Assembly: GCA_027365485.1 (NCBI GenBank)
Contig: DAHXNH010000393.1
Coordinates: 1 to 32,280 of the forward strand
Length of the DNA stretch: 32,280 bases
Source: Clostridiales bacterium
GTDB taxonomy: Bacteria > Bacillota > Sulfobacillia > Sulfobacillales > Sulfobacillaceae
Direction of reading: 5' to 3'
Shown: in pieces, positions 5,682 through 27,067 of the stretch
Position numbering within the stretch: position 1 is the stretch's first letter
Layout of the letters: every line of letters begins with the position of its first letter
Notes under the pieces: model-generated
The model's database searches: none
Seen by the model: the letters and a program-made list of their open reading frames with translations, nothing else
What the model was told of the DNA's origin: nothing
Translations under genes and position numbers: made by a program

Positions 5682-6284
5682 ATCAGCGAACAATCCGTCT
5701 ACGAAGACGAAACCTTTGACGACTGGGACGGTGAGGAACAGGTTTTTCGTGGAGTCCGTTTTGTTCGTTGCCGCTTGGTCTCCAGTTTTTGGAAAAACAC
5801 CCAGATCCATCACTGCCAGTTTGTTCAATGCGACTTGACCAGTGCCGAATTCCAAGGAGCCGCGGTCCAAGAGTCGGCTTTTCTCAATTGTCGCCTCAGT
5901 CGTTCCTCGTGGTTTGGTGCCGACCTCGAAGCTTGCAAATGGACAGGGTCAGGATTTGAATCCGCTGATCTCCGGGGTGCCCGCATTCGCGGAGGCGATT
6001 GGTCCTACGTCAACCTGCGCCAACAGGATCTTCGTCGCCAAGACTTCTCAGGCGCTCGGATGAAGCTGGTTGATTTATACGGCACCAATCTGGAGTCGGC
6101 CAATTTTCGAAACGCCGACCTCAGTCAAGCCAACTTAGCCCAGGCCAGGTTGAAAGGGACCGACTTTCGCGGCGCTCACATGGAGGGTGTCGACTTCCGC
6201 CAGGCCAACCTCACAGGGGCCCTTTTAACCAGCGACCAAGCCATCTTGGTGGCTCGCGCTTACGGTGCCCGCATCGACACGTGA
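5682..6284 (+). CDS. Pentapeptide-repeat protein, possible ATC start
   Basis: The frame encodes about 200 residues built of A(D/N)LxX-type pentapeptides, for example FESADLRGARIRGG, LESANFRNADLSQANLAQA and FRGAHMEGVDFRQANLTGA. These predict a right-handed quadrilateral beta helix like that of Qnr/MfpA-type proteins. Substrate or partner is unknown. The first conventional start codon in frame is TTG at 5775, but it lies inside repeat-like sequence (EQVFRGVRFVRCRL) that clearly belongs to the protein. The frame is open back to a TAA at 5634-5636 and holds no ATG, GTG or TTG there. AGAGAGGGG (5664-5672) lies 6-9 nt before ATC codons at 5679 and 5682, so a rare ATC start is my best choice. A sequence error in a true ATG is the main alternative. 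The gene converges on pabBC with only 3 bp between stop codons. Confidence 0.75.
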   Translation: MSEQSVYEDETFDDWDGEEQVFRGVRFVRCRLVSSFWKNTQIHHCQFVQCDLTSAEFQGAAVQESAFLNCRLSRSSWFGADLEACKWTGSGFESADLRGARIRGGDWSYVNLRQQDLRRQDFSGARMKLVDLYGTNLESANFRNADLSQANLAQARLKGTDFRGAHMEGVDFRQANLTGALLTSDQAILVARAYGARIDT

Positions 6285-6287
6285 GCC

Positions 6288-8036
6288 TTAGGCTGTCGCA
6301 TCTGTCTGAAGATCCACCGGAATCCACCCCTCTAGGCTGTTAATAAACCAGAGTTGGTCGGCCGCCTCTACCTCAGATCGAGTCAGCCGCGCCACCTTGA
6401 TCCATCCCCCATCCAACAGCCACTGGCGCATGGTTCCTGGCAATAGTCCACACTCAATCGGTGGAGTCCAAAGGGTGCCGTTCACCTCTGCGACCAGATT
6501 GCCGCGAGTAAACTCGGTGGCATAACCCTCATCATTCCACAGCAGATGATCGAAGAAAACGCTTTCGGGGGGATGCCAGTTGACATAGCGGGCCCGATTG
6601 TTGGTTTTATGAAAGAGCATGCGATCTTGGCTTGACACCGGCTCATGAGCCCAAGCGACACGGTGGTTGTCGGCAGGCGTCGGGTGCCAGGGGAATGCCT
6701 CGACGGCCACACCCCCCGCTGCATCCAGCAAAAGCCGGATGCGCCATCTGCCTTCAGTTAAGGCGCCTGCCGTGGCGTGTAACTTGGCCAACACCTGGGA
6801 TTCGGAGCAAGGTCGACCAAAATATTCCGCCGAGGCCTGAAGACGCGCTAAGTGCGCTTCGAGCAAAGCATACCGCCCCTGCTCCAAGCGCATGGTTTCT
6901 AAGAGATCCATCCCGCTGGCAGACCACTGAGCCGAAATAAGGAACTGTGATTTGGTTTGAACTTCCGCATATTCTAAGAACTCGTTCGAGTCGGCGGTAA
7001 TCCCGCCACCGGCAGAAAACTCAGCCCAACCCCGACTGCGGTCTATGGTCAGCGTTCGAATGGCCACATTAAAGACCGCGTTGCCATCAGGACTGACGTA
7101 CCCCAGAGTACCGCAGTAAATTCCGCGCGGACTCCCTTCTATCTCTCGAATGATCCGCATCGTGCTCGCTTTGGGGGCTCCGGTGATCGACCCACAAGGG
7201 AAAAGAGCGGTCATCACGTCGCGCCATGTCCGATCGGAAGGAAGGTCGGCAGTCACCGTCGAGGTCATGGAATAAAGCGTGGGATATCGTTCCATCCGAA
7301 AGAGGTCTTGGGTTGCCACCGAACCGGTAGCCGCCACCTTACCTAGGTCATTGCGAATCAGATCGACGATCATCACGTTTTCCGCGCGATCCTTGGCCGA
7401 CTCTTGAAGGGCCCGCATTTGCGCTTCATCTTCGGCCGAAAAGCGCCCTCGCCCTATCGTCCCCTTCATGGGACGGCATAAAATGCGCCCGTCGTCTACG
7501 CGAAAGAAAAGCTCGGGAGATGCGGAAATGAGCGAAAACTCTTCCCATTCGGCATAGGCCCCATAGCGGCCTTGCTGAGCCGCCTGCAACTGTCGATAAA
7601 GCGCGCGGGCATCCCCCCAAAACTCGGCTTTTATGCGCGTGCTGTAATTTACCTGGTAGGTTTGACCCTGGCTAATCGCATCCTGGATGGCCAAAAATGC
7701 CTGGTGGTATGCCGAACGAGGAGTCAAAATCCGCCAGTCCCCCAAAGCCGAGGGCCCGGGCTCGTCCCCCGGCCAGTCCACCGGCTCTGGGCTAGAAAAC
7801 AAGCCAAACACCACTAGCGGCAACCGTCCCGGCTCGTGGGTCACCAGGCCAGGATCAAAACCGGAAGCGGCCTCATAAGACACGAAGCCCGCCGCCCAAG
7901 CACCGCAAGCGACCGCTTGCTCAACCGCTGCCAGGCAATCTTGGACCTCGCTCGCCTGATTCGCCACCAAGATCCGTTGCGGCCGACGAAAGATTTGCGG
8001 CTGCGCCCCCTCTAAAAAGTCAAAATGGAAAAACAT
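6288..8036 (-). CDS. pabBC: Aminodeoxychorismate synthase I / lyase fusion (PabB-PabC)
   Basis: The 582-residue protein joins two folate-pathway enzymes. The PabB part (about residues 1-365) makes 4-amino-4-deoxychorismate from chorismate and amide nitrogen. It has PMKGT at 189-193, where Lys distinguishes PabB from anthranilate synthase, plus VDLIRNDLG at 224-232, GSITGAPK at 282-289 and GGGITADS at 343-350. The PabC part (about 375-582) is a PLP lyase that releases pyruvate to give 4-aminobenzoate, with the Schiff-base lysine in FHKTNNRARY (Lys477) and EFTRGN downstream. The ATG at 8036 has a weak GAGG 7 nt upstream. It follows the UxaA-like gene by 22 bp on the same strand, so it is probably read as the last gene of the pectin operon even though its job is unrelated. 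No pabA is in the window. Confidence 0.93.
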   Translation of the reverse strand: MFFHFDFLEGAQPQIFRRPQRILVANQASEVQDCLAAVEQAVACGAWAAGFVSYEAASGFDPGLVTHEPGRLPLVVFGLFSSPEPVDWPGDEPGPSALGDWRILTPRSAYHQAFLAIQDAISQGQTYQVNYSTRIKAEFWGDARALYRQLQAAQQGRYGAYAEWEEFSLISASPELFFRVDDGRILCRPMKGTIGRGRFSAEDEAQMRALQESAKDRAENVMIVDLIRNDLGKVAATGSVATQDLFRMERYPTLYSMTSTVTADLPSDRTWRDVMTALFPCGSITGAPKASTMRIIREIEGSPRGIYCGTLGYVSPDGNAVFNVAIRTLTIDRSRGWAEFSAGGGITADSNEFLEYAEVQTKSQFLISAQWSASGMDLLETMRLEQGRYALLEAHLARLQASAEYFGRPCSESQVLAKLHATAGALTEGRWRIRLLLDAAGGVAVEAFPWHPTPADNHRVAWAHEPVSSQDRMLFHKTNNRARYVNWHPPESVFFDHLLWNDEGYATEFTRGNLVAEVNGTLWTPPIECGLLPGTMRQWLLDGGWIKVARLTRSEVEAADQLWFINSLEGWIPVDLQTDATA

Positions 8037-8058: not shown

Positions 8059-8955
8059 TCATAATGTGGGGCCCAGCCGTGCGATGGCAAACATATCCCC
8101 ACCAAATTGTTCGGATACCGCCTCGGTCCCATTGCATACGGCCTCCACGTAATCTAACCACTGCTCTGGCCTGCGATCGTCGATCCATCCATCCAAATCA
8201 TCGGTTAAGATCGACCGCAGCGCGGGATCGACGCCCAAGCGGATGACTGGAGCGATCGGATGACCGCCCAGATGCTGCAAGTCGCCCAGGGCTAACAGCA
8301 AATGACAGCCTCCAGCGACTAACCCGGTTAAACTGGCGGCTTCGCCCCCTATGGCCGGCATCCACCCCTCATGGCTCCCCTCATCTAGAGGCTCTGCATA
8401 GGCCAGTGCTTGCCCGGGCCCTTCACGGCCCTCAGGCACTGCCCAAATCAATCGAGCTCCCGCCTGCCGAAGGGCATCCACCAAATGCTGCCCAGGCCCC
8501 CCCATAGCCTCCCAAGACGCCAGTCCGATCACGAGCCGATCCATGCCCACCGTAATCCTTTGTTCGGACTGCTCCGGAGCCTCTAAAGCTTCTCGTACTT
8601 TGGCTTCTGTTTTCTGCATGCCCCCGGTCGCCTGAATCAAAATCGCTTGCGCTGACCGTCCTCGCTGCCGAATGCCTTCGGCGACTTCTTGGGCTGGCCC
8701 ACCTTCGCAGCCCAAGCCCACCACCACCACGCGTTCGACGTTTGGATGCGCTCCAATCCCAATCAACGTATTGCGTGTTTGCTCTTTGTCGCTACCGACT
8801 TGAGCGCATCCCAGGGGATGTTCTACCGTTTTCCCGCGGACGACGGATTCGACCGCTCGTTTGGCCGCCTGGGTCGAACAGACCACCGAAGGCAAGGCCA
8901 ATCGCCAGCGCCGAATGCCCACCTGACCGTTCTCCACCGAATAGGCTTGGATCAT
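8059..8955 (-). CDS. Divergent UxaA-family protein retaining the Cys motifs
   Basis: The 298-residue chain resembles the second domain of altronate/galactarate dehydratases (UxaA/GarD): LPSVVCSTQA at 21-30, HPLGCAQVG at 46-54 with Cys50, and VVVVGLGCEGG at 76-86 with Cys83. The C-terminal half aligns only loosely with the UxaA C-terminal domain and lacks the TECGGSDACSG-type segment. The neighbouring 390-residue chain (10188-11360) shows the reverse pattern, so the two may be complementary subunits of one dehydratase. The ATG at 8955 has AAAGGA 9 nt upstream. It lies 51 bp after the FAH-SAF gene and 22 bp before pabBC. It could also be a degenerate regulatory or scaffolding subunit; the substrate is not shown by sequence. 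Confidence 0.7.
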   Translation of the reverse strand: MIQAYSVENGQVGIRRWRLALPSVVCSTQAAKRAVESVVRGKTVEHPLGCAQVGSDKEQTRNTLIGIGAHPNVERVVVVGLGCEGGPAQEVAEGIRQRGRSAQAILIQATGGMQKTEAKVREALEAPEQSEQRITVGMDRLVIGLASWEAMGGPGQHLVDALRQAGARLIWAVPEGREGPGQALAYAEPLDEGSHEGWMPAIGGEAASLTGLVAGGCHLLLALGDLQHLGGHPIAPVIRLGVDPALRSILTDDLDGWIDDRRPEQWLDYVEAVCNGTEAVSEQFGGDMFAIARLGPTL

Positions 8956-9006
8956 CTTGCACGTTCCTTTCGTTTAACATACCGCACTCGGCGGTCGCAA
9001 TCTCCT

Positions 9007-10191
9007 CTATGAGCGCGCGGCCTCGGCGTGTTTTTCGGCGATCAAGTCGCCTCGCCCCCGTTTGCTGTCAAAGTTATGCACATGCACATGCTCGCCTTGG
9101 CTAATGGCTGGACCGGTGAGTCCAATAACCTCTCCGTATTTAATCACCGGCTGACCGGGACCAATGTCTTTGACGGCGATCTTGTGGCCAAAGGGGATCG
9201 TTTGTTTGGCGATAAAGGACTGCCCCGCCACGTGAATCCGGTCACCCGCCGCCAACGGTGCCAACACAACCGCCACGTTGTCTTTGGGGTGTACTTGGAC
9301 CACGGCTGCTCCCCCCCGCTGCGCAATTGGCGCCCAGTTAGCATCGAGTCGCCGCACCGTGTGGACGATGCTCCCCCACTGGCCACCATCGAGGGTGAGA
9401 AGGTCCCCATCTTCTAGGGCAAACGTTTCATCAAAATCGAACTGGCCCGGCTCCATGATCCCAGTCCAATCTTGGATAGGCCAAAACTGAGCAAGTCGAT
9501 CGGCCTGAACTTTCATCAGCAATGGGGAAAGCGTCCACTCCCACTGTTGGTTAAGGACGACTAGGCCATGGCGTTCGACTTTGAGTGAAACTGCGATCGT
9601 GGGTGCTTCGTCGTCGTTAAGGAGGGTGAAAACAGGGCTAAGCGCCGCACTATGATAAAAGAGCTTAGCGGGTCCAGCCGATGAGGACGCTAAGAAATCC
9701 ATCGCGGTCACATCCAGCCCCAGCCCATAGCCAGCCACCTGGCCATCCGGTGCGATTAGCCCCACCAGCCCTGGCACGGGAACCTGCCAGACCGCATCGC
9801 GACGCATGCCCAAATCTTCCCCCACCTCGGTCACCGCACCGCGAGGCGCTTTAAATACCCAGCCTGAGTTCGACGTGTCTTGGGAAGAAGTCGGCTGACC
9901 CGTAACCGTGCGTTCCCAATCGCTCTCATGCGCCACCCACAGTTCAACTTCGGCAGGCAGCCGTCGCTCCGACTCGATTGGGGTTGCCCCCACGCCTTCG
10001 GACAACCCATGATTCAAGGCTGAAAATAGGCTATCGTGGCGCTCTTGACACCACTGCCACAGTTGGGTTAGCGTTGCCATCGAAACAGCGGTCACGCCCT
10101 CAACCTCAACAAATTTTTCGTCCGAGCTTCTTCGTACGCCAAGGCCACGTTTTTCCCCGTTGCCATAGCCGACAATTTGGATCTGACTCAC
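9007..10191 (-). CDS. FAH-like domain fused to UxaA-type SAF domain
   Basis: The 394-residue protein has two parts. Residues about 80-290 follow the fumarylacetoacetate hydrolase (FAH) fold as in 2-keto-3-deoxy-sugar-acid dehydratases: WVFKAPRGAV (111-120), MRRDAVWQVPVPGLVGLI (129-146) and GYGLGLDVTAMDF (154-166). Where relatives have VPEPEL, with two metal-binding glutamates, this one reads VPVPGL, so metal binding is probably lost. Residues about 297-385 are a SAF domain of the kind found at the N-terminus of UxaA: HPKDNVAVVL, FGHKIAVKDIGPGQPVIKYG and HVHVHN (368-373). The GTG start at 10191 overlaps the stop of the upstream UxaA chain as GTGA, which implies coupled translation. The SAF part likely supplies the domain missing from the 390-residue UxaA chain. 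The fusion order and the damaged FAH site are unusual. Confidence 0.75.
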   Translation of the reverse strand: MSQIQIVGYGNGEKRGLGVRRSSDEKFVEVEGVTAVSMATLTQLWQWCQERHDSLFSALNHGLSEGVGATPIESERRLPAEVELWVAHESDWERTVTGQPTSSQDTSNSGWVFKAPRGAVTEVGEDLGMRRDAVWQVPVPGLVGLIAPDGQVAGYGLGLDVTAMDFLASSSAGPAKLFYHSAALSPVFTLLNDDEAPTIAVSLKVERHGLVVLNQQWEWTLSPLLMKVQADRLAQFWPIQDWTGIMEPGQFDFDETFALEDGDLLTLDGGQWGSIVHTVRRLDANWAPIAQRGGAAVVQVHPKDNVAVVLAPLAAGDRIHVAGQSFIAKQTIPFGHKIAVKDIGPGQPVIKYGEVIGLTGPAISQGEHVHVHNFDSKRGRGDLIAEKHAEAARS

Positions 10192-11360
10192 TGGGCCACC
10201 TCTTTTCCGTCCCAGCCCGGGAAGATACCGAACTCATGATGGTGCCCGCGTTCTGCTGCCACCCGTTCTCCGTTGGCCACCGACACGATCTTGCGCAAAA
10301 GTTGATCCGCCACTTGGTCCACGCTGAGCACCCCTTCAATGATGGGCCCTGCGTCGATATCAATCACATCATCCAGGCTTTGCTTCAACGCCGTGCGTGT
10401 GGACATTTTAATTACCGGAACAATCGCCGACCCCGTGGGCGTCCCCCGACCAGTCGTAAACACGATGACTTGAGCCCCCCCCGCGGCCATGCCGACTAAT
10501 TGCATCACGTCGTGGCCTGGGGTGTCCATCACCGTCAATCCCGGCTTGACGGGGCGCTCGGCATAATCGACCACCGCCTGAAGGGGGCTGTTGCCCCCCT
10601 TATGCACACATCCTAGGGATTTTTCTTCAATGGTACTGATTCCGCCTTCGATGTTCCCTGGAGCCGGTTGGGCTCCGCGAAAATCGACGCCCATGCGCAT
10701 CGATGAGGTTTCGGCATGGGTCACTGTGGCCAAAAGTTGGGCCGCTATCGCCGGCGAGGCCGCACGTTGGGCCAGCAAATGTTCTGCGCCAATCAATTCG
10801 GTGGTCTCCGCCAGAATGGAGCGTCCGCCCATGGCAATTAACCTATCACTGACTCGGCCTAAGGTGGGATTGGCCGACAGTCCCGAACAGGCGTCGGAAC
10901 CCCCACATTCCGTTCCCAGAATCAACTGGCCCAACGGAGCCGGTTGTCGCACCAGACCTTCCCGTTCTCTAATCCAACCAGTCAACAAGCGCCTCGCCGC
11001 ATCCAAGGCACGACGGGTACCATGGGACTCCGAAAGCGTCACCACCTCATAGCGTACATGCTTGGGCAATTGCTCAGTGACGGCTGGGATCAGCCCATCG
11101 TGCGGCTCCACGCCAATCAACAGCGTAGCATACACATTCGGGTGGTCGGTCCAGCCAGCCAAAGTCCGCACCGCCAATCGCCAACCCTCTAGGTCGGGGG
11201 CCCAGTCCTGATGCATCTCCACCACGGCCACCGTCGAAAGCTCATTCGCAATCATCGCCGCTACCCGGTTGCAAGCAGGGTAAAGAGGTAGCACCAAGAG
11301 ATGATTGCGGGTACCGACGCGCCCGTCTTCGCGAAAATATCCATTAAACGTGGACAACAT
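10188..11360 (-). CDS. uxaA: UxaA-family altronate/galactarate dehydratase, C-terminal type chain
   Basis: The 390-residue protein covers the second and C-terminal domains of UxaA/GarD and lacks the N-terminal SAF domain. It begins GYFREDGRVGTRNHLLVLP and carries the C-terminal-domain segments GTECGGSDACSGLSANPTLG (149-168), EEKSLGCVHKGGNSPL, VMDTPGHDVMQLVGMAAGGA and VFTTGRGTPTG. In the second domain the usual H-x-x-GC motif is replaced by HQDWAPD (50-56) and GLGCE by GVEPHD (83-88), so two conserved cysteines are gone; the 298-residue paralogue keeps both. UxaA enzymes dehydrate altronate or galactarate to a 2-keto-3-deoxy acid and need a metal. The stop codon overlaps the FAH-SAF start. It lies 102 bp downstream of the alpha/beta hydrolase gene, the second-largest gap within the gene run after the terminator. 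Confidence 0.8.
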   Translation of the reverse strand: MLSTFNGYFREDGRVGTRNHLLVLPLYPACNRVAAMIANELSTVAVVEMHQDWAPDLEGWRLAVRTLAGWTDHPNVYATLLIGVEPHDGLIPAVTEQLPKHVRYEVVTLSESHGTRRALDAARRLLTGWIREREGLVRQPAPLGQLILGTECGGSDACSGLSANPTLGRVSDRLIAMGGRSILAETTELIGAEHLLAQRAASPAIAAQLLATVTHAETSSMRMGVDFRGAQPAPGNIEGGISTIEEKSLGCVHKGGNSPLQAVVDYAERPVKPGLTVMDTPGHDVMQLVGMAAGGAQVIVFTTGRGTPTGSAIVPVIKMSTRTALKQSLDDVIDIDAGPIIEGVLSVDQVADQLLRKIVSVANGERVAAERGHHHEFGIFPGWDGKEVAQ

Positions 11361-11462: not shown

Positions 11463-12521
11463 CTAAGACGGTCCTGATGATCGGTTAAACTTTCCGTCTA
11501 CATACGCTTGAGCAAAATCCCACACCGGTTGAGCGAAGAATCGGTGGCCTCCCTGGCCTACGACCAATTGGCAGTTCTCGCCCCGGGAGAATCCGGTATA
11601 GGTACGCTGCAACTCCGAAAACGCCTCCCGGGTGGCCTCGGCAGGATAAATCGGGTCCTGGGCACCATGCACAACCAACAGAGGACGCGGAGCAATAAGC
11701 CCAGCCAGATCCGACATTTCACCCAACCGCAGAATGCCCGGCACGACATTGCAAAGACAGTGAGCCCGGGCCACAATCGAAGCGCGATAAGTACAAAAAG
11801 ACGAAACCAAAACCGCGGCCCCCACCCGAGCGTCCAAACTGGCCAAAAACATGGCCGCGGTGCCTCCCCCAGAGTACCCCACCACCAGAATGCGTTCGAG
11901 ATTGACCTCCGGCAAGGTGCTAGCGTAATCCAACACCTGCATCAGATCCGCCACTCGCTCGCCGATGAGCGTACGGCCCATCAACAAGAGACGTCGGCTT
12001 AGCTCCGCACACGAGTTCTTCTTGTCAGCGGCTCGATCCTGCTCCCAAGCCAGTTCCCCAAAACCCAGGAGCTCTGGAACCAAGACCGCGTAGCCGTGGG
12101 CAACCGCTTGGATACCGACGGCTTCCTCACGCTGCTCGGTTTGGTTTTTTTCTTCAGCACTCAAATAATGCCCGACAAACGGCTCTTTGCCGCGCGGATG
12201 ATGCCCTTGAAGCGCCAACACCACGGGAAATCCTCCCGGAGGGGGAACGGTCTTCGGCTGCAATCGATAGCATGGCAACCGCACCCCCGGGGCAGAAACA
12301 ATTTCCACTCGCTCTTCCCAATACGATCCCCGGTCCTGACGATGGATCTGAAGCGAAGCCGCCGAATCGCGATTGCTCCGCCCCTTTAAAGAGTCCAATC
12401 CCAGGACCTGCGCCAGCTTGTCGCGCAGGCTGACTTGTTGCGCTAAACGGTCGTCCACCCCAAGCCTCTGAGCGGTTGCTCGTTCGTACAGAGCGTTGGT
12501 ATGGGCTTCGATGTCCAGCAT
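11463..12521 (-). CDS. Alpha/beta hydrolase, acetyl-xylan-esterase-like
   Basis: The 352-residue protein shows a full Ser-Asp-His triad: Ser217 in VVGYSGGGTA, Asp289 in HGAQDPIYP and His326 in VGQGGHRFF, with an oxyanion loop around ALQGHHPRG (103-111). This layout fits the acetyl-esterase-like alpha/beta hydrolases (Abhydrolase_7 / AXE1 type). No signal peptide is present, so it should act in the cytoplasm. Given its place between pectin methylesterase and the UxaA genes, removal of acetyl groups from pectin oligomers is a reasonable inference, not shown by sequence. ATG at 12521 is preceded by GAGGAGG at 8 nt, which is better than the longer frame that starts at 12554 inside the upstream gene. 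The gap to the upstream CE8 gene is 16 bp. Confidence 0.8.
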   Translation of the reverse strand: MLDIEAHTNALYERATAQRLGVDDRLAQQVSLRDKLAQVLGLDSLKGRSNRDSAASLQIHRQDRGSYWEERVEIVSAPGVRLPCYRLQPKTVPPPGGFPVVLALQGHHPRGKEPFVGHYLSAEEKNQTEQREEAVGIQAVAHGYAVLVPELLGFGELAWEQDRAADKKNSCAELSRRLLLMGRTLIGERVADLMQVLDYASTLPEVNLERILVVGYSGGGTAAMFLASLDARVGAAVLVSSFCTYRASIVARAHCLCNVVPGILRLGEMSDLAGLIAPRPLLVVHGAQDPIYPAEATREAFSELQRTYTGFSRGENCQLVVGQGGHRFFAQPVWDFAQAYVDGKFNRSSGPS

Positions 12522-12537
12522 CGCTATATCCTCCTCA

Positions 12538-13443
12538 TTAGCTGAACCCGCCAATTCCCCACGAGTCCTTCAAGACTTGCCGCAATTGCCAGCGCTGAGG
12601 CAACTCCGCCAAGGCATAGGCGTGAGCCCAGACCGAGCGCCCGGCGTCGGCTGCTCCCGGGCCAAAGCTGCCAAATTCAAAATAGCGGGCCGTCTCCTGG
12701 TTACGCTCGTCCCGCCAGTTATCCCATCCCTGCGGCAGAATATGATCGCCCATGTCGGTTTCAACGAAGATGACGCTGGCGTATGGACGCCAGGGTCTTC
12801 CCAAGTAGACCGACGCGGGCTCCGCGCCAGTCAGGCAACATTGCCAAAAGAGGTAGCCAATATCCACCTCTTTTGGCGTCGATGCGGCTGTGATATAGCC
12901 TCGACCCAGACTTTTGACCTGACACCGCTCAAAAACTGCCGTAGCCGGTCCAAAAATGAAGTCGACGTCGCCTTCGATATCACAGTCGCGAAAATACTGA
13001 TGACCGCTACCTCCCGTAAATAGGGTGTCTTGGTGTCCAAGCAGGCGCAAGCCGGACCCAAAAAACTGCTGACCGGTCACCGCCAAGGCGATCGCCTGCC
13101 CCACCTGAGAGCGCGGGCCAGCCGTATTGGCGATGGTTAAATCTTGCAAAACGGTGCCATCTGCAGCAATGGTGAACGTCGGCGTACGAAAGGTTCCATA
13201 AGGCGCGCCGTCTCCGTGCAGTTTATTGGCGTAATCATCCCACTCAATTCGCGTCCGAAGCGCTCCTTCGCCCAAAAGGTGAACCGTTTTGCCCACACTC
13301 AGGTTGAGCTTTTCCCGATACACTCCGGCTTCAAGATGAATCGTCGTGGGCTCCGAGTCGCCTGCCGCTACGGCATCGAACGCCGCCTGTAGCGTCGTAA
13401 AATCGGCTCCGGCACTGGCCCCCACCCGCCATTCAGTCGCCAA
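12538..13443 (-). CDS. Pectin methylesterase, CE8, no signal peptide
   Basis: The 301-residue protein is a right-handed beta-helix pectinesterase that removes methyl esters from galacturonan. The catalytic set is visible: Gln116 in GQAIAL, Gln138-Asp139 in LGHQDTLF, Asp161 in GDVDFIFG and Arg216/Trp218 in YLGRPW. The start is TTG at 13443: AGAGAGGG lies 6 nt upstream and the protein then opens directly into the mature CE8 fold (ATEWRVGASAGADFTTLQ). A longer frame upstream sits wholly inside the PL2-like gene. It overlaps the end of that gene by 11 bp, so the two are coupled. Secreted CE8 enzymes carry a leader; this one has none, which points to a cytoplasmic role on imported oligogalacturonides. 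Confidence 0.92.
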   Translation of the reverse strand: MATEWRVGASAGADFTTLQAAFDAVAAGDSEPTTIHLEAGVYREKLNLSVGKTVHLLGEGALRTRIEWDDYANKLHGDGAPYGTFRTPTFTIAADGTVLQDLTIANTAGPRSQVGQAIALAVTGQQFFGSGLRLLGHQDTLFTGGSGHQYFRDCDIEGDVDFIFGPATAVFERCQVKSLGRGYITAASTPKEVDIGYLFWQCCLTGAEPASVYLGRPWRPYASVIFVETDMGDHILPQGWDNWRDERNQETARYFEFGSFGPGAADAGRSVWAHAYALAELPQRWQLRQVLKDSWGIGGFS

Positions 13444-15067
13444 CCCGATCCCTCTCTTTCGCGACCCGGTCATACCACCAGGAATTGTCAATCTTATGCC
13501 CTAAGTCGGCATAAAAAGAGCCAAAAAACGCCGAAGAAGCCCAATACTTCGGCACCTCCTGTGGGCACCTTTGCATATGCGCCACTAAGTGAATTAACGC
13601 TAAGGGTTCTAACGCATCAAACTTCGCCCAACGATGATGCCGACTCGGAAGAAACAGCCCTCGGTGCCAGCGATCGTTTAAGATGTTGTCGCCCACCGCC
13701 TGGGCTTGGTCTAAAAAAGCCTGCTGGTTCGTCGTGGAGTAGAGCGTGAGCAGGCAAAAAATGGCCAATGGATCCGATACTTCGATTCCTGCCGCTAACG
13801 TGGGCCCACTAATGTCTTCAGCGGTCGGGCCAATATCCCCGAGGCCATTGGCTTTGGCCATCTGACGAGCTACCGCCCACAACTGCGGCTGAGGAGAAAA
13901 TTGATAGGCTAAGCAATACGCCCACAACATCAGGAAGTCCGCAGCCATGGGCTTTAACACCATTCCTTGTCGGCCATAGTACCCATCGCGATCTAGGCGC
14001 AGTCCGGTCAGGCGCATGCCATTGGTCATGAGTGGATGAAAGCTGTTGTCCTCAGAATCATAGGCGTAGCGGGCATAAGCCAACAAATCCTCCACCGCAA
14101 TCTGACCCAAGCCATCGCCACTTAGCCCCAAGCGTTCCGCCAACAGCAGTTTATTAATCGCCGCTCTGCCAAGGATGGTGCGGATCTGCCGGGCGACGAC
14201 GACCGTCGCTTCCGTCGGTTGATATGGGGCCAACTGCACTCCAAATTGTGCCTCTGCTCGGTCGCCGCGACCCCGCGGCCCAGGCAGCACCGAACGACTA
14301 AACTGATAGCCCGCGAGCCCAGTCGCAGGGTGACGCGCTTCAACATAACGCTGAGCCAATCGCTCAGCCCAAACAAGGGGCGCCTCCTCGCCTGAGAGCG
14401 CAGTAAGCATCGCCCCGGCGTAAATCAAATCACTGCCCGCATTGATGAAAGTGAGCCCCTGAGCGGTGAAAAACACCGGTAGATGACCGTAGGGTCGGTC
14501 CCAGACCCCATGGCCAAGACTTGGCTCCACCGGCAGGCCATGGCGGGAGAACTCCAAACGGTCCCAATCCTTGACGTGTGCTTCCCACATGGCATCGATA
14601 TATTCTGTCGTGTGCGTTGCACTCACCGACCACATGAATTCGTAGTCGGGATAGTGGCATTTGAGTTCATGGACCGGGCCTTTGTCGGGCGCATACACGG
14701 CGCGCTTGCTCCCCAAATCGAAGGCCATATGTCCACCCAAACTCAGCAAGCGCCCATGGCGAAGATGGCAAAAGGCATAGTCCCACGCCGCTTGGCACGC
14801 CTCCTGATAAGCGCTCTGCCCGCTCAATCGGCTTAACCCCTGCAACGTCCGGAATAAAATCTGTTGACTGCCCAAGTTGCTCATGATCCACTGCTCTCCG
14901 GAGGCCTGCCAAGTCACAGGTTCGCGGGTGTCCACCGCGATGCCATCGACAAAAAGTGGCGTGCTCGACGTTCCCCAGTGATCTCGACCCTCGGTCAACA
15001 CCACATCCCCGAATTGACGCACCGCATCCAGATAGCGGCTACTTTTTTCCTCGTCTGGCGTATGCAT
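13433..15067 (-). CDS. Pectate lyase, PL2-like alpha/alpha-barrel
   Basis: The product of 544 residues looks like the PL2 pectate lyases, which cleave polygalacturonate by beta-elimination, often as exo-enzymes acting inside the cell envelope or cytoplasm. Supporting segments are TPLFVDGIAVDTREPVTW near the N-terminus, SNLGSQQILFRTLQGL, GGHMAFDL, FMWSVSATHTTEYIDAMWEAH and GHKIDNSWWYDR at the C-terminus. The length suits the family. I recognise it by overall pattern and by context rather than by a proven catalytic arginine or metal site, so another alpha/alpha-barrel uronic-acid lyase is possible. ATG at 15067 follows GGGAGAGG. There is no signal peptide. It sits 22 bp after GH105 and overlaps CE8, and its unsaturated products are substrates for GH105. 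Confidence 0.68.
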   Translation of the reverse strand: MHTPDEEKSSRYLDAVRQFGDVVLTEGRDHWGTSSTPLFVDGIAVDTREPVTWQASGEQWIMSNLGSQQILFRTLQGLSRLSGQSAYQEACQAAWDYAFCHLRHGRLLSLGGHMAFDLGSKRAVYAPDKGPVHELKCHYPDYEFMWSVSATHTTEYIDAMWEAHVKDWDRLEFSRHGLPVEPSLGHGVWDRPYGHLPVFFTAQGLTFINAGSDLIYAGAMLTALSGEEAPLVWAERLAQRYVEARHPATGLAGYQFSRSVLPGPRGRGDRAEAQFGVQLAPYQPTEATVVVARQIRTILGRAAINKLLLAERLGLSGDGLGQIAVEDLLAYARYAYDSEDNSFHPLMTNGMRLTGLRLDRDGYYGRQGMVLKPMAADFLMLWAYCLAYQFSPQPQLWAVARQMAKANGLGDIGPTAEDISGPTLAAGIEVSDPLAIFCLLTLYSTTNQQAFLDQAQAVGDNILNDRWHRGLFLPSRHHRWAKFDALEPLALIHLVAHMQRCPQEVPKYWASSAFFGSFYADLGHKIDNSWWYDRVAKERDRVGD

Positions 15068-15089
15068 CCGCCTCTCCCTTGCTGACCGT

Positions 15090-16196
15090 TCACGAGCCAC
15101 CTGTGTTCGCCGCTTTCTGCTGCTCCATCTCGATCCCAGCTAAGATCAAGGCGGCCACTGCTTTGATTTCGTCTTCCACTACGGGCGAGGTCACATAATA
15201 CGTATAGGAACCATCCCGGTAGGGCGACCCCCCCAGTCCCGACACCGCGTTGCATTGGCTCAAGTGCACGATGCCCTCACCGTCCCGCCGACAAAGGCGG
15301 CGTTCAATGCCTCGGTATGCGTTCACGGCAGGCTCGTAAAAGTTGGCCGCTAAGAGGCCTAAACGCATCCCCTTCGCCAAGGCGTACACCACCATCGCCG
15401 AGACCGACGCTTCCCGATAGTTGCCGGGGGCGTGCGGACGATCGAGAACCTGCCACCATAAGCCTGACTCCGGGTCTTGAACCCGGACCACCGCCGTCGC
15501 CAATTGACTCAACAGGCCGCTCAAAACAACCCATCCCGGATACGATTTGGGGATCGACTCCAAGAGATCGACCAAGGCCATGATGAACCAGCCCACACTC
15601 CGACCCCAAAACTGGGAAGAACACCCCGTATCAGGATGAGCCCAAGCTTGTTGCCGGGCTTCGTCCCAGCCATGATACAAAAGCCCGCTTTTAGGATCGC
15701 GGGTGTGGCTATAAAGAAGGGTCACTTGGTTGACCGCTTCATCCACCCAGTCGAATTGATGGTAGTTTTGGCCATACACCAAAACAAAGGGCATGGCCAT
15801 ATAGATGCCGTCTAGCCACATTTGCTGAGGATAGATCTGCTTGTGCCAGAACCCCCCACTTTGAGTGCGGGGCTGATGACGCATTTGCTCCATCAATCGT
15901 TCCACCGCTAACCGATACTTTTCCCCTTGAGGTCCGTTCGTTCGCGGCCAAAGCAACTTGCCCGGATTGATGTTGTCTAAATTGTAATCCTCGGCTCGGT
16001 ATCCAGCGATGGTTCCGTCCGAGTGCACCATCCGATCCAGCCATCGGTCCACCGATTCCAGCATTTCTGCCGACCCCAAGTGACGGCTCGCCTTGTCGAG
16101 GGCTAGCATCATCAACCCGGTTTCATACCGCCACCCCATCTCCAGAAGCGCTGGCCGTTGGTCCACGGCCAACCGCCAGGCAAACTCGGTCCACAT
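15090..16196 (-). CDS. Unsaturated uronyl hydrolase, GH105 (YteR/YesR type)
   Basis: The 368-residue protein has the GH105 layout: WRYETGLMMLAL (22-33), the catalytic aspartate in PQQMWLDGIYMAMPF (Asp129), HGWDEARQQAW, FWGRSVGWFIMALVDLLE and REASVSAMVVYALAKG. GH105 enzymes hydrate the 4,5-unsaturated uronate left by pectate or rhamnogalacturonan lyases and release it from the oligomer; they are normally cytoplasmic. It starts at ATG 16196, directly adjacent to the stop codon of the GH28 gene, with GGAGGGAGGTGG as ribosome binding site inside the end of that gene. The exact linkage (galacturonan or rhamnogalacturonan) cannot be read from sequence, but the neighbours favour galacturonan. Confidence 0.9.
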   Translation of the reverse strand: MWTEFAWRLAVDQRPALLEMGWRYETGLMMLALDKASRHLGSAEMLESVDRWLDRMVHSDGTIAGYRAEDYNLDNINPGKLLWPRTNGPQGEKYRLAVERLMEQMRHQPRTQSGGFWHKQIYPQQMWLDGIYMAMPFVLVYGQNYHQFDWVDEAVNQVTLLYSHTRDPKSGLLYHGWDEARQQAWAHPDTGCSSQFWGRSVGWFIMALVDLLESIPKSYPGWVVLSGLLSQLATAVVRVQDPESGLWWQVLDRPHAPGNYREASVSAMVVYALAKGMRLGLLAANFYEPAVNAYRGIERRLCRRDGEGIVHLSQCNAVSGLGGSPYRDGSYTYYVTSPVVEDEIKAVAALILAGIEMEQQKAANTGGS

Positions 16197-17843
16197 TCAT
16201 CCACCTCCCTCCGAAGCTTCTGAGCGAAGCGCCCTCACCTGCTCCGCATCAGTTTCGGGATCCACCAAGACCGAGTGGGGCCAAGCTTCCAAAATCCGAT
16301 ATTGGATGTTTTTTGTTCCCTCCCCCGAAACCCTAAGGCAGGGCTCATTCCCGACTCGAGCACTTTCGACCACTTCGAGAAAGACGTCTTGGGTTTGATT
16401 GAGGTGAACCCACGGACCTTTTTGAATCGCTAGATGAATCTCAGCCAACCGAACCCCTGCTGCATTTTCAAGCGTCATACCACGTTCGCTCACCGCCGTT
16501 AAGTGAGAGACCGTCAACTGTTCGATGGGCTGTTCAGGCAGCCCCCGAACCCATAGCGCGTGACGGGCTCCCTGAATCGCGGCCCTATCAATGCGAATAT
16601 TCCGAAACCTAGGCGTTTCTTCACCGACCACCGGCACCCCATTCCGATCCACCGTAGCGGCATTGGATTCATAAAACAGGTCAAACGAAATGGCGGCCCC
16701 GGCAATGTCGAGCATCCGCACATCCTCGATGGCAATATTTTCCACCACACCGCCACGACCGCGAGCACTCTTAAAACGAAGGCCAATATCGGTGCCCACC
16801 ATCGTCAGATTACGCACGCGCACGCTATCCACTCCGCCTGACATCTCACTGCCAATGGTCACCCCGCCATGTCCGTGATAGACCGTACAATCCTCGATAG
16901 CCACATCGCGAGTCGGCAGTCCCAGTTCTCGACCCGCCCGATCTTTGCCTGACTTGAGACAAATCGCGTCGTCACCGACATCAAAAGTACTCGATTCGAT
17001 GCGAACGTGCTGGCAGGAATCCACGTCGATTCCATCACCATTTTGCGCATACCAAGGGTTGCGCACGGTAATAAAACGGGCCGTCACCTGCTCGGATGCC
17101 CAGAGATGAAGACACCACGCAGGAGAATTTTGAAACGTCACCCCTTCAAGCAAAACCCGACGACAACGCCTCAAGCTCAAAAGCTGGGGCCGCAAATATT
17201 CGCGATAGGGGGCCCATTCAGCCATGTCCAGCACCCGATGGCGAATCAGGCGAGGAACCACTTCAGCCCCTTCCATGGCCAACCGACTCGGCCACCACAT
17301 CAAGGCGTCGGAACTGAGCACGCCCCCGGCTTCTACCAGATCCCGCCATTGTCGGTCCGTCGTCTTGGATTTCTTGATCGGGCGCCACCCCTCGCCGCCA
17401 CCGTCAAAAAGGCCGCGACCAGTAATGGCCACGTCTTCTAAATTTTCGCCGTCAATCGGCGAACGACAGCGCACGCTAGGGAGGCCCTCAAACTGGGTAG
17501 AAATCAGCTCATAATCTTCATGGTTGCGGCTAAAGCGGACCACGGCCCCCGCCTCAAGATGCAGGTTGATGCGACTCTTCAGACGAATCGGGCCAGTGCA
17601 CCATACTCCTGGGCCTACAATCAGGCGTCCGCCGCCAAGAGAAGAGAGTTGGCCAATAGCCTCAGCAAACGCTCGGCTGTTGTCGGTCCTGCCATTGCCT
17701 TTGGCCCCAAAATCCGCTACATTTAGCGCGTAAGCGGGGATTTGGGGCAAAAGCACATCTTGACTCGCGGCTCCCTGATGATGATCTAAAAATTTCCAAA
17801 AATCGTTCTGGCTTGCCAATCTCCTCACCCCTATGGCTTGCAT
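16197..17843 (-). CDS. Polygalacturonase, GH28, no signal peptide
   Basis: The 548-residue beta-helix protein carries the GH28 catalytic set: NGDGIDVDSC at 268-277 (first acid Asp270), VGDDAICLKSG at 289-299 (Asp291-Asp292), HGHGGVTIGSEMSGG at 323-337 and LRFKSARGRGG (Arg356, Lys358). The opening VADFGAKGNGRTDNSRAF (43-60) is the usual start of the fold. The length and the WW/Trp-rich insert near 150-215 are nearer to bacterial exo-polygalacturonases than to short fungal endo-enzymes. The N-terminus (MQAIGVRRLASQNDFW) is not a signal peptide. ATG at 17843 has GAGGG 5 nt upstream and lies 12 bp after the enolase-family gene. Confidence 0.92.
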   Translation of the reverse strand: MQAIGVRRLASQNDFWKFLDHHQGAASQDVLLPQIPAYALNVADFGAKGNGRTDNSRAFAEAIGQLSSLGGGRLIVGPGVWCTGPIRLKSRINLHLEAGAVVRFSRNHEDYELISTQFEGLPSVRCRSPIDGENLEDVAITGRGLFDGGGEGWRPIKKSKTTDRQWRDLVEAGGVLSSDALMWWPSRLAMEGAEVVPRLIRHRVLDMAEWAPYREYLRPQLLSLRRCRRVLLEGVTFQNSPAWCLHLWASEQVTARFITVRNPWYAQNGDGIDVDSCQHVRIESSTFDVGDDAICLKSGKDRAGRELGLPTRDVAIEDCTVYHGHGGVTIGSEMSGGVDSVRVRNLTMVGTDIGLRFKSARGRGGVVENIAIEDVRMLDIAGAAISFDLFYESNAATVDRNGVPVVGEETPRFRNIRIDRAAIQGARHALWVRGLPEQPIEQLTVSHLTAVSERGMTLENAAGVRLAEIHLAIQKGPWVHLNQTQDVFLEVVESARVGNEPCLRVSGEGTKNIQYRILEAWPHSVLVDPETDAEQVRALRSEASEGGG

Positions 17844-17855
17844 CTAGCCCTCGAT

Positions 17856-18941
17856 TCAACGGTATACGGAGAATTCTCGGGCCAATTGGGCTTCATCCAC
17901 ACTGACGCCAAGCCCCGGAGCATGGCCTACCTCCACGACTCCGTTTTCGATCCGGGCATCAAAGGTCCAGAACTCGGATCGATTCGACTTAGGCTCAATC
18001 GAATACTCATAAAACGTACTGCATTCCGGCGTGCTGGCGGCCAAATGAATGGCGGCAGCAAAGCCAATGCTACGCGTCGTGTTATGCGGCACGTACTCCA
18101 CTCCAAAAGCTCGACACAAGGTGGCGGCACGCTTGGCATTGGCCAAGCCTCCGCACTTTATTGGGTCTGCCCCGTAGTAATGACAGGCGCCACGACTGAC
18201 AAAGTCGCGAAAGGTATAAAGATTCCAGTTCTGTTCTCCGACGTGAATCGGCACCGGAAGACTGCCGGCTAGGCGCACATATGCCTCGATATCATCGTAG
18301 GGACAGGGCTCTTCGAAGTAATGAATGCCTTGGTCGCTCACCCGTTGATACAGTTCAAGCGCTTGGATAGCGGTGTACGAACCGTTGCCGTCAATCATCA
18401 GCTTCACCTTAGGCCCGATGGCTTTACGCACCGTTTTAACCTTCTCTTCGTCAGCGTCCAAGTCCACGCTGAGCCCTTGCCCATAGCGCGGGCCGACTTT
18501 GATCTTCACCGCAGCAAAATTAAACGCAGCCAAGGCCGCCTGGAGTTTCTCGGCTTCTTCCACCGGGGTTAAATTCCTACTCATACTCGATCCGTATAGG
18601 GGAATGTGATCTCGGTAGCGGCCACCCAGCAAATTGTACACCGGCTGGCCCAGCCATCGTCCCTTCAGATCCCACAGCGCAATCTCGACTCCACTAAAGG
18701 CTGCGGCTAACAGTTGCCCTGAAAGTTTGTAGTTCCTGCGCATGACCCGTTCTTCAATCGCTTCCGACTGGAAAGGATCCATGCCCAAGATGGCCGGCTT
18801 AATCACGCTTTGCATAATCGCCAGCAACACCGGGGGGCGCATCGGACTCGACTCTCCGAACCCAAAGGCGCCTTCATCGGTTTCCACTTTGACATAAAAC
18901 TTGTGCGACCCGACGAATGAGACGACATCCGTGACCTTCAT
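17856..18941 (-). CDS. Enolase-superfamily sugar-acid dehydratase (MLE/MR type)
   Basis: The 361-residue protein has the muconate-lactonising/mandelate-racemase subgroup residues: Lys146 and Lys148 in VKIKVG, metal ligands Asp184 (MIDGNG), Glu210 (FEEPCP) and Glu236 (HVGEQNW), Asp259 in YGADPIKCGG and His286 in VPHNTTRSIG. Such enzymes dehydrate hexonates such as galactonate, gluconate or galactarate to 2-keto-3-deoxy acids. The exact acid cannot be read from sequence; the pectin setting suggests a galacturonate-derived acid made by the nearby oxidoreductase. ATG at 18941 has GGAGGAGG 6 nt upstream and is preferred to the overlapping TTG at 18944. It is the first gene after the terminator-like hairpin at 19010-19052. 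Confidence 0.87.
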   Translation of the reverse strand: MKVTDVVSFVGSHKFYVKVETDEGAFGFGESSPMRPPVLLAIMQSVIKPAILGMDPFQSEAIEERVMRRNYKLSGQLLAAAFSGVEIALWDLKGRWLGQPVYNLLGGRYRDHIPLYGSSMSRNLTPVEEAEKLQAALAAFNFAAVKIKVGPRYGQGLSVDLDADEEKVKTVRKAIGPKVKLMIDGNGSYTAIQALELYQRVSDQGIHYFEEPCPYDDIEAYVRLAGSLPVPIHVGEQNWNLYTFRDFVSRGACHYYGADPIKCGGLANAKRAATLCRAFGVEYVPHNTTRSIGFAAAIHLAASTPECSTFYEYSIEPKSNRSEFWTFDARIENGVVEVGHAPGLGVSVDEAQLAREFSVYR

Positions 18942-19009
18942 CAAAAACCTCCTCCCTCAGTCCCAAACAGGGGCAGACGCGAACCTTTTTTAAAATCCCT
19001 GCCCGGCAA

Positions 19010-25736: not shown

Positions 25737-25775
25737 GGCAAGGTTGCCCTTCGGCCCACTTCGTGGGACCTTGCC
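25737..25775. repeat. Subterminal double hairpin in the ISL3 leader
   Basis: GGCAAGGT (25737-25744) pairs with ACCTTGCC (25768-25775), and inside it CCCAC (25755-25759) pairs with GTGGG (25763-25767). It lies between the left terminal repeat and the transposase ribosome binding site. Such structures in IS leaders often block expression from outside transcripts. Confidence 0.55.
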
Positions 25776-25831
25776 CGCGTCGCCCCGTGGCCCAATACCA
25801 GGCCAACTGGCCGGCCGAAGGAGTGTACACA

Positions 25832-27067
25832 ATGGGTATTTCATATTCCACGCCGCAGCTCTTTGCCGCCGCTTTAGGGCTGCAATCCCCCTGGGAAGTG
25901 GTTGAGACGCGGTTGGACCGCACGGCGAACCACTTGCGACTCACGCTGGACTTTGCCCGCGGCGCACGCTTTGCCTGTCCCGCCTGTAGCACCGAGAACT
26001 GTCCCGTCCATGATACCGAAGCCCGCCGGTGGCGCCATCTGAACTTCTTTCAGTATGCGTGCTATATCGAGGCCCGTCAGCCTCGTGTCCGGTGCCCGAA
26101 CTGTGGGGTGAAAACCGTCCCGGTGCCCTGGGCCCGACCTGGTAGTGGATTCACCCTCCTATTTGAAGCGTTTACGCTGACCTTGATGCAGGACATGCCG
26201 ATTCGGGCGGTCAGTGATCTCGTCGGTGAGTGGGACACCCGCCTCTGGCGGGTGCTCGACCATTACGTGACCGAGGCCCGCGACCAGCGCTCCTTAGCCC
26301 CCGTCACGGCGTTTGGGGTCGACGAGACGGCCGCCCGACGAGGCCACCATTAGGTCACGATCGTCGTCGATCCGGCCGAATCGGCCGTGATCTTTGCCAC
26401 ACCAGGCAAAGACGCGACCACGGTGACCCGGTTCGCTGAAGATTTTCAAGCCCACCACGGCGATCCGGCCACCGTGACCGACGTCACGATGGATATGTCG
26501 CCCGCCTTCATCAAAGGGGTCACCACCCACTTTCCCGAGGCCGCGATCACGTTCGACAAGTTCCATGTCATGAAGCTCCTTGGGGACGCCGTCGACCAGG
26601 TGCGCCGAGAGGAGCGCAAAGTCCGCCCCGAACTCGCAGGTACGCGCTATTTGTGGCTCAAAAATCCGCAAGATCTCAAAGTGTCGGCCGCTGATCGACT
26701 CGTGGACTTGCGCCAAGCCCACCTCAAAACCGGTCGGGCCTATGCCATCAAAGAAACGCTTAAGGCCTTGTGGGACCAGCCGCCGGAAGCCGCGGAGGCC
26801 TTTCCGCGGCACTGGTACTTCTGGGCCACCCATAGCCGCCTCGATCCCATCCGTCAGGCCGCCAAAACCATCAAGGCCCACTGGGCCGGGGTCCTCCGGT
26901 ATACCCACAGTCACCGCACCAATGCCGTGTTGGAGGGCATTAACAGCTTGGTGCAAGCCGCCAAAGCCCGAGCCCGCGGCTATCGGAATATTCATCATTT
27001 CATTACCGTCATCTATCTGGTGGCAGGCAAGCTATCCCTGCCACGTTTAACCTTAGAATCGGGCTAA
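25832..27067 (+). pseudogene. ISL3-family transposase with a single in-frame TAG
   Basis: The reading frame of 411 codons is continuous apart from TAG at 26351 (codon 174). Features are the N-terminal zinc site FACPACSTENC followed by VRCPNCGVKTV, then the DDE core with FGVDETAARRGHH, a second acidic segment ITFDKFHVMKLL, and SHRTNAVLEGINSLVQAAK near the C-terminus. Relatives usually read GHQYVT or a similar sequence where this one reads GHH-stop-VT, so a tyrosine codon probably mutated to TAG. ATG at 25832 has AAGGAG about 9 nt upstream. The rest of the gene shows no erosion, so the mutation is probably young or a sequencing error. Confidence 0.88.

Follow-up and report, generated by a model that had tools for sequence, protein, structure and literature searches.

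Two complementary large chains and a FAH-SAF fusion in Sulfobacillaceae: a putative split dehydratase of the UxaA/GarD superfamily

The UxaA/GarD superfamily (COG2721), which comprises dehydratases of D-altronate, D-galactarate, and D-arabinonate, provides the closest described relatives of the proteins encoded by a three-gene locus at positions 8059-11360 of a 32,280-nucleotide stretch (hereafter, the window) from a Sulfobacillaceae genome deposited as Clostridiales bacterium. The three genes, here called B, S, and A in their order along the minus strand, hold between them the SAF, second, and C-terminal domains of these enzymes. The D-arabinonate dehydratase studied by Watanabe et al. is an iron protein (PMC6336799). 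Its residues Cys134, Cys173, Cys208, and Cys276 are the only cysteines conserved superfamily-wide, with the exception of sulfolactate sulfo-lyase, and iron binding by these four residues has been proposed (PMC6336799). SuyAB and a predicted L-fuconate dehydratase are listed as heteromeric members, and in the D-arabinonate route of Herbaspirillum the COG2721 dehydratase is found beside a COG3970 FAH-type KDP dehydratase and an SDR protein (PMC6336799).

All the near-invariant residues of the superfamily are present across the trio. However, whereas the 57 canonical members aligned here carry both motif sets on one chain, the trio carries them on two paralogous chains, so that neither A nor B unites the four cysteines and both catalytic domains on a single polypeptide. 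As in SuyAB and other pairs of SAF protein and large chain (e.g., those of loci L038-L042), SAF lies on a protein of its own beside the large chain. Unlike these pairs, which have one large chain, the trio holds two complementary ones, and its SAF domain is fused to an FAH-fold domain; a SuyAB-type system is defined by a Cys-less large subunit with no second one, and here an A protein with three cysteines accompanies B. The trio loci also resemble the non-phosphorylative Herbaspirillum route in bringing together the same kinds of enzymes, along with SDR and alpha-ketoglutaric semialdehyde dehydrogenase-like genes, although Herbaspirillum uses separate proteins and a single-chain dehydratase, whereas the trio combines an FAH-SAF fusion with a divided large chain. 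A literature search found no description of this A/B split, and the trio appears to represent a previously undescribed arrangement within a known enzyme family.

Division of the family motifs between A and B

The genes and motifs on which the comparison is based, all on the minus strand, are the following:

10188-11360, minus strand: gene B (390 residues), UxaA/GarD large-chain paralogue with an intact C-terminal domain and a degenerate second domain
9007-10191, minus strand: gene S (394 residues), FAH-fold domain fused to a C-terminal SAF domain
8059-8955, minus strand: gene A (298 residues), UxaA/GarD large-chain paralogue with an intact second domain and a reduced C-terminal domain
11193-11213, minus strand: HQDWAPD, B residues 50-56; relatives have H-x-x-G-C at the same place
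11097-11114, minus strand: GVEPHD, B residues 83-88; relatives have GLGCE at the same place
10881-10913, minus strand: TECGGSDACSG, B residues 150-160, with the fourth family cysteine (C152, UxaA C264)
10608-10628, minus strand: EEKSLGC, B residues 245-251
8878-8880, minus strand: Cys26 of A (UxaA C132), in PSVVC
8794-8820, minus strand: HPLGCAQVG, A residues 46-54, with Cys50 (UxaA C166)
8704-8718, minus strand: GLGCE, A residues 80-84, with Cys83 (UxaA C199)
8062-8073, minus strand: GPTL tail, A residues 295-298, frequent in canonical members

The first-pass annotation had correctly placed HQDWAPD, GVEPHD, and TECGGSDACSG in the 390-residue chain and HPLGCAQVG and GLGCE in the 298-residue chain, and the motif states hold across the orthologues (17 A and 16 B proteins). 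It had also correctly read the GTGA-type overlap, in which S starts inside the stop codon of B (four nucleotides, 10188-10191); a gap of 51 nucleotides lies between S and A.

The division is evident at the domain level. B matches PF20629 (2.5e-92, 309 bits; cut-off 26.8) and, more weakly, PF04295 (2.4e-17, 63.7 bits; cut-off 27.3), while A matches PF04295 (3.2e-24, 86 bits; cut-off 27.3) and stays below the threshold for PF20629 (20.9 bits; cut-off 26.8). In NCBIfam, B has only a low match to galactarate dehydratase (200 bits against a cut-off of 731) and A has none, and no equivalog is assigned to either protein. Among solved structures, E. coli GarD (6u7l) is a match of B (4e-50), while a phmmer search with A returned only weak, chance-like matches, and a structure search was needed. 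The predicted model of A (pLDDT 91) matches GarD 6u7l with a Z of 23.9 over 268 residues, the next best value being 9.0, which leaves GarD as the sole significant match; the other fold matches (Z of 9 or less, on the Rossmann-like part of A) were set aside as not informative. Confidence in this model is lowest near the two cysteine-bearing loops (HPLGC and GLGCE) and at the C-terminal tail, a pattern that would be compatible with segments becoming ordered only in a complex.

To quantify the division, 57 canonical single-chain members, E. coli UxaA and GarD among them, were aligned with 17 A proteins and 16 B proteins, and the 66 columns conserved in at least 93% of the canonical members were scored. 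Nine of these are kept only in A (UxaA C132, G165, C166, G196, L197, G198, C199, E200, and Q225), 45 only in B, and 12 in both, and none has been lost from both chains. If the positions are taken as independent, the probability of zero double losses is 8e-6; under circular shifts that keep the block structure, two of 66 arrangements equal this result, one of them being the real one. With looser conservation (86 columns), a single double loss appears. A and B are paralogues of the UxaA/GarD large chain, each degenerate in a different part, and their complementary loss is real and beyond chance.

The individual motifs follow the same pattern. The three cysteines of A are invariant in the 17 A proteins and missing at those positions in all 16 B proteins. 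Conversely, the TECGGSDACSG segment is invariant in the canonical members and in all B proteins and missing from A, and K247 and G250 of the EEKSLGC segment, also invariant in canonical members and B, are deleted in A. The C-terminal GPT(L/V/I) end, frequent in canonical members, is retained by A and substituted in B. On the basis of their spacing (39, 35, and 68 residues), Cys134, Cys173, Cys208, and Cys276 would correspond to UxaA C132, C166, C199, and C264; the first three of these family cysteines lie in A and the fourth in B, and only the pair holds the full set. The two chains hold different parts, as had been claimed, but these are not the halves first envisaged: A provides the second-domain motifs, three cysteines, and the GPTL tail, and B provides most of the C-terminal domain. 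B retains 57 of the 66 family-invariant positions and does not keep the whole catalytic set by itself.

Mean identity among the A proteins is 57% in the second domain versus 48% in the C-terminal domain, and among the B proteins 78% in the C-terminal domain versus 53% in the second domain, the pattern that would arise if constraint on each chain fell mainly on its own part. Pairwise identities of A and B are correlated (r 0.87), with a contribution from shared species history.

Co-occurrence and origin of the split

Orthologues of A were found by searching 41 related genomes; their neighbours are B and S, in the order B-S-A, which is kept in loci L024-L037 and L117-L119. Across an order-wide set of 42 genomes, B is present in 18 (above 500 bits) and A in 18, with both in 17 and either in 19. 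The two genomes with only one of them are those in which the contig ends after S (G004) or begins inside S (G003); as the first-pass annotation would predict, neither chain occurs without the other except at contig ends. One genome (G008) holds two copies of the B-S-A set. In another (G048), B and A are adjacent on one contig (L114, 6784-9112) and S is on a different one, beside an enolase-superfamily gene (L115, 3877-5079); all three genes thus persist even when unlinked. In G024, B is read in two overlapping frames (L031, 6667-7837), through a frameshift or an assembly error.

When 84,980 species genomes were scanned by pattern, 18 short A loci came up. Their records carry the label Bacillota or Sulfobacillus, apart from one under Actinomycetes, which is the same locus as that of a genome of the order (G032). 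Sulfobacillus harzensis DSM 109850 (L055) is the named cultured strain in this group. No further short full-length A was found in 398 genomes across the phylum.

A distant version of the system is found in a genome from another family of the class (locus L104; G101, contig 17, 1025-3290), where a free SAF protein of 98 residues lies between B and A. Over the 66 columns, this pair divides into eight kept only in A, 38 only in B, 17 in both, and three in neither. In the maximum-likelihood tree, the A proteins form one clade (99/98) and the B proteins another (100/99), both apart from the Cys-less branch of the family, with the L104 chains adjoining A and B, respectively. The second-domain tree also joins the L104 A chain to the A clade (98/97). 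The C-terminal-domain tree does not settle the position of the L104 B chain. The L104 A chain is a long branch, and because of such long branches, a single origin of the A/B split is likely rather than proven. The split also seems older than the SAF-FAH fusion, since the distant L104 has the split together with a free SAF protein; this locus looks like the state that preceded the fusion.

A composite dehydratase and its alternatives

Together, B, A, and the SAF domain of S probably make up one heteromeric sugar-acid dehydratase of the UxaA/GarD type. The basis of this reading is the sequence partition, conservation, co-occurrence, the predicted folds of A and S, and gene context, from which we infer complex formation, a composite site, iron ligation, the reaction, and the substrate class. 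That one enzyme is split between paralogues holding different parts of its active site had already been put forward for this locus, and the absence of double losses among the 66 columns, the conserved gene order, the co-occurrence, and L104 all argue strongly for it.

According to this model, an ancestral single large chain would have been duplicated. In one copy, A, the second-domain motifs with three cysteines and the GPTL tail would have been retained, while about 100 residues of the C-terminal domain disappeared; in the other, B, the C-terminal domain would have been retained together with the fourth cysteine and the remaining catalytic block, while the second-domain motifs were lost. The pair would then form one composite site, to which A gives its second domain and B its C-terminal domain, the reciprocal site being dead, and the SAF domain of S would complete it as in ordinary family members. 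The proposed reaction is the one usual for the family, an iron-dependent alpha,beta-dehydration that converts an aldonate into a 2-keto-3-deoxy acid. In the structure of GarD, the second domain is said to form the dimer interface and the C-terminal domain to hold the metal, iron reportedly being needed; such an arrangement would suit a pairing of A with B. No single one of the three proteins should be able to work alone, and their co-occurrence suggests an obligate dependence among the three.

A more specific proposal is that of one split iron centre, with three cysteine ligands from A and the fourth from B, in which S tethers the dehydratase to the next pathway enzyme through its SAF-FAH fusion, decayed to a scaffold in the lineage of the window. 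We put this forward tentatively, as somewhat more likely to be wrong than right in this full form. Several observations weigh against the composite-dehydratase model itself. The Cys-less group of the family has been retained although it keeps none of the three second-domain cysteines, and these residues are thus not required by every member. In window B, residue 30 is a cysteine that misses the family site by one position, a feature shared by the B protein of L025 and no other. Finally, the function of the four cysteines is itself only a proposal (PMC6336799).

The same Cys-less group bears on an alternative in which B and the SAF domain of S constitute a complete, Cys-independent enzyme resembling SuyB, and A is a non-catalytic regulatory or structural partner. 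Members of this branch are also without UxaA C132, C166, and C199, yet they are kept in many genomes, including that of the window (G000:C410), and the large share of invariant positions retained by B fits such an enzyme. However, B goes further in its losses than this branch, being without G165 and E200, two residues that most or all of the Cys-less proteins retain, and it does not group with them in the tree; moreover, the 17 A proteins are invariant, three cysteines included, exactly where B has lost residues, which a purely structural partner would not need. We therefore regard this alternative as unlikely.

It is very unlikely that A has an activity of its own on its three-cysteine second domain—such as the delivery of iron or a cluster to B—outside the working site. 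Its short length and its own conserved GGHPI segment would be in line with such a role, but A keeps the ancestral second-domain residues and the ancestral C-terminal tail, and the strict A-B linkage, correlated divergence, and complementary losses fit one site better. That either chain is a pseudogene of a normal UxaA, through decay or an assembly artefact, finds nothing in its favour beyond motif losses in single sequences and is practically negligible, given that the A and B frames are open and highly conserved in at least 16 species-level genomes and that the partition persists down to 40-45% A identity.

The FAH-SAF protein, gene context, and significance

Under the composite-dehydratase model, S contributes through the smaller of its two domains, which, together with the genes located upstream, occupy the following positions:

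9337-10191, minus strand: FAH-fold domain of S, approximately residues 1-285
9076-9312, minus strand: SAF domain of S, approximately residues 294-372
11463-18944, minus strand: upstream genes for an alpha/beta hydrolase, a pectinesterase-like protein, a pectate lyase (PF06917), a GH88-type hydrolase, a polygalacturonase-like protein, and an enolase-superfamily sugar-acid dehydratase

The third protein between the two large chains does carry the SAF domain, as the first-pass annotation held, but this is not a merely detached SAF, being fused to an FAH-fold domain. The SAF part is recognized by Pfam (PF08666, 3e-6, 28.1 bits; cut-off 21), and a stretch of about 80 residues at the C-terminus matches SAF of UxaA (3k3s, 1.8e-15) and of GarD. 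All 17 near-invariant SAF positions are kept in window S, and they are conserved at 89% or more across the S orthologues. Residues 112-278 match KdaD, the 2-keto-3-deoxy-D-arabinonate dehydratase (2q18, 1.4e-6), and the AlphaFold2 model (pLDDT 82), in which a low-confidence linker (residues 286-293) joins both parts, has KdaD entries as its top solved-structure matches (2q1a, 1.5e-14, TM 0.70 by target), as befits an FAH fold.

Glu143, Glu145, and Asp164 of KdaD, which we take to be its metal ligands, form a complete set (E, E, D) in 12 of the 18 S orthologues. Unlike KdaD, window S holds V and G at the positions of both glutamates, in addition to its SAF domain; Asp164 is kept in all orthologues, window S included, and the glutamate positions have also been lost in S of L025, L026, L034, L117, and L120. 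Because of the V and G replacements, the FAH domain of window S is predicted to be catalytically dead. S would originally have supplied the next step of the pathway, and the intact FAH domain of most orthologues may carry out the next dehydration of the product, while that of the window would act as a carrier or scaffold only. S. harzensis (L117), one of the cases in which the fused FAH domain is without the glutamates, has an intact set in a separate FAH gene close by.

As for the substrate, the pectin-degrading and enolase-superfamily dehydratase neighbours point to a sugar acid, in the window possibly pectin-derived, and the upstream pectin and sugar-acid genes are likely the context of use. 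In other genomes, the trio is accompanied by an aldehyde dehydrogenase near alpha-ketoglutaric semialdehyde dehydrogenase (653 bits, against a curated cut-off of 770), short-chain dehydrogenases, enolase-superfamily sugar-acid dehydratases, and separate FAH proteins. In S. harzensis, PdxA, a DUF1537-type kinase, a protein with an AIR-carboxylase (LarB-like) domain, and a GntR regulator are found beside it; L117 (362-14114) is a dense sugar-acid cluster in a cultured strain, with the trio, a semialdehyde dehydrogenase-like protein, an intact FAH protein, an SDR, PdxA, the DUF1537-type kinase, the LarB-like protein, and an HpcH/HpaI aldolase. The identity as altronate/galactarate dehydratase originally assigned to the trio is thus not established, as these neighbours point to sugar acids generally. 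The assembly of the window holds no UxaC and two relatives of KduI; the classic altronate route is not supported, since UxaC is absent while KduI is present twice, which does not in turn identify the substrate.

Other genes were observed around the locus. A PabB-type aminodeoxychorismate synthase-like gene with a C-terminal lyase part (6288-8036) starts 22 nucleotides past A, and a related gene also follows A in L024 and L025. A pentapeptide-repeat-like protein is encoded near the operon (5775-6284) and kept in L024, and two adjacent transposase-like open reading frames that by eye resemble ISL3 (25763-27067) are apparently a broken gene. Elsewhere in the same genome (L042, 9789-11236; G000:C410) lies a second UxaA-family pair of SAF protein and large chain, the latter without the three second-domain cysteines and grouping with the Cys-less branch.

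The metal site of UxaA/GarD enzymes, the role of their conserved cysteines, and their intersubunit geometry are poorly understood. With the second-domain and C-terminal motifs on separate chains, each set can be mutated, labelled, or omitted alone, and the split predicts that the active site of the family can form between chains. The trio would also represent a clean case of subfunctionalisation after duplication, with no invariant residue lost from both copies. For annotation, it means that neither A nor B alone should be called a functional altronate dehydratase.

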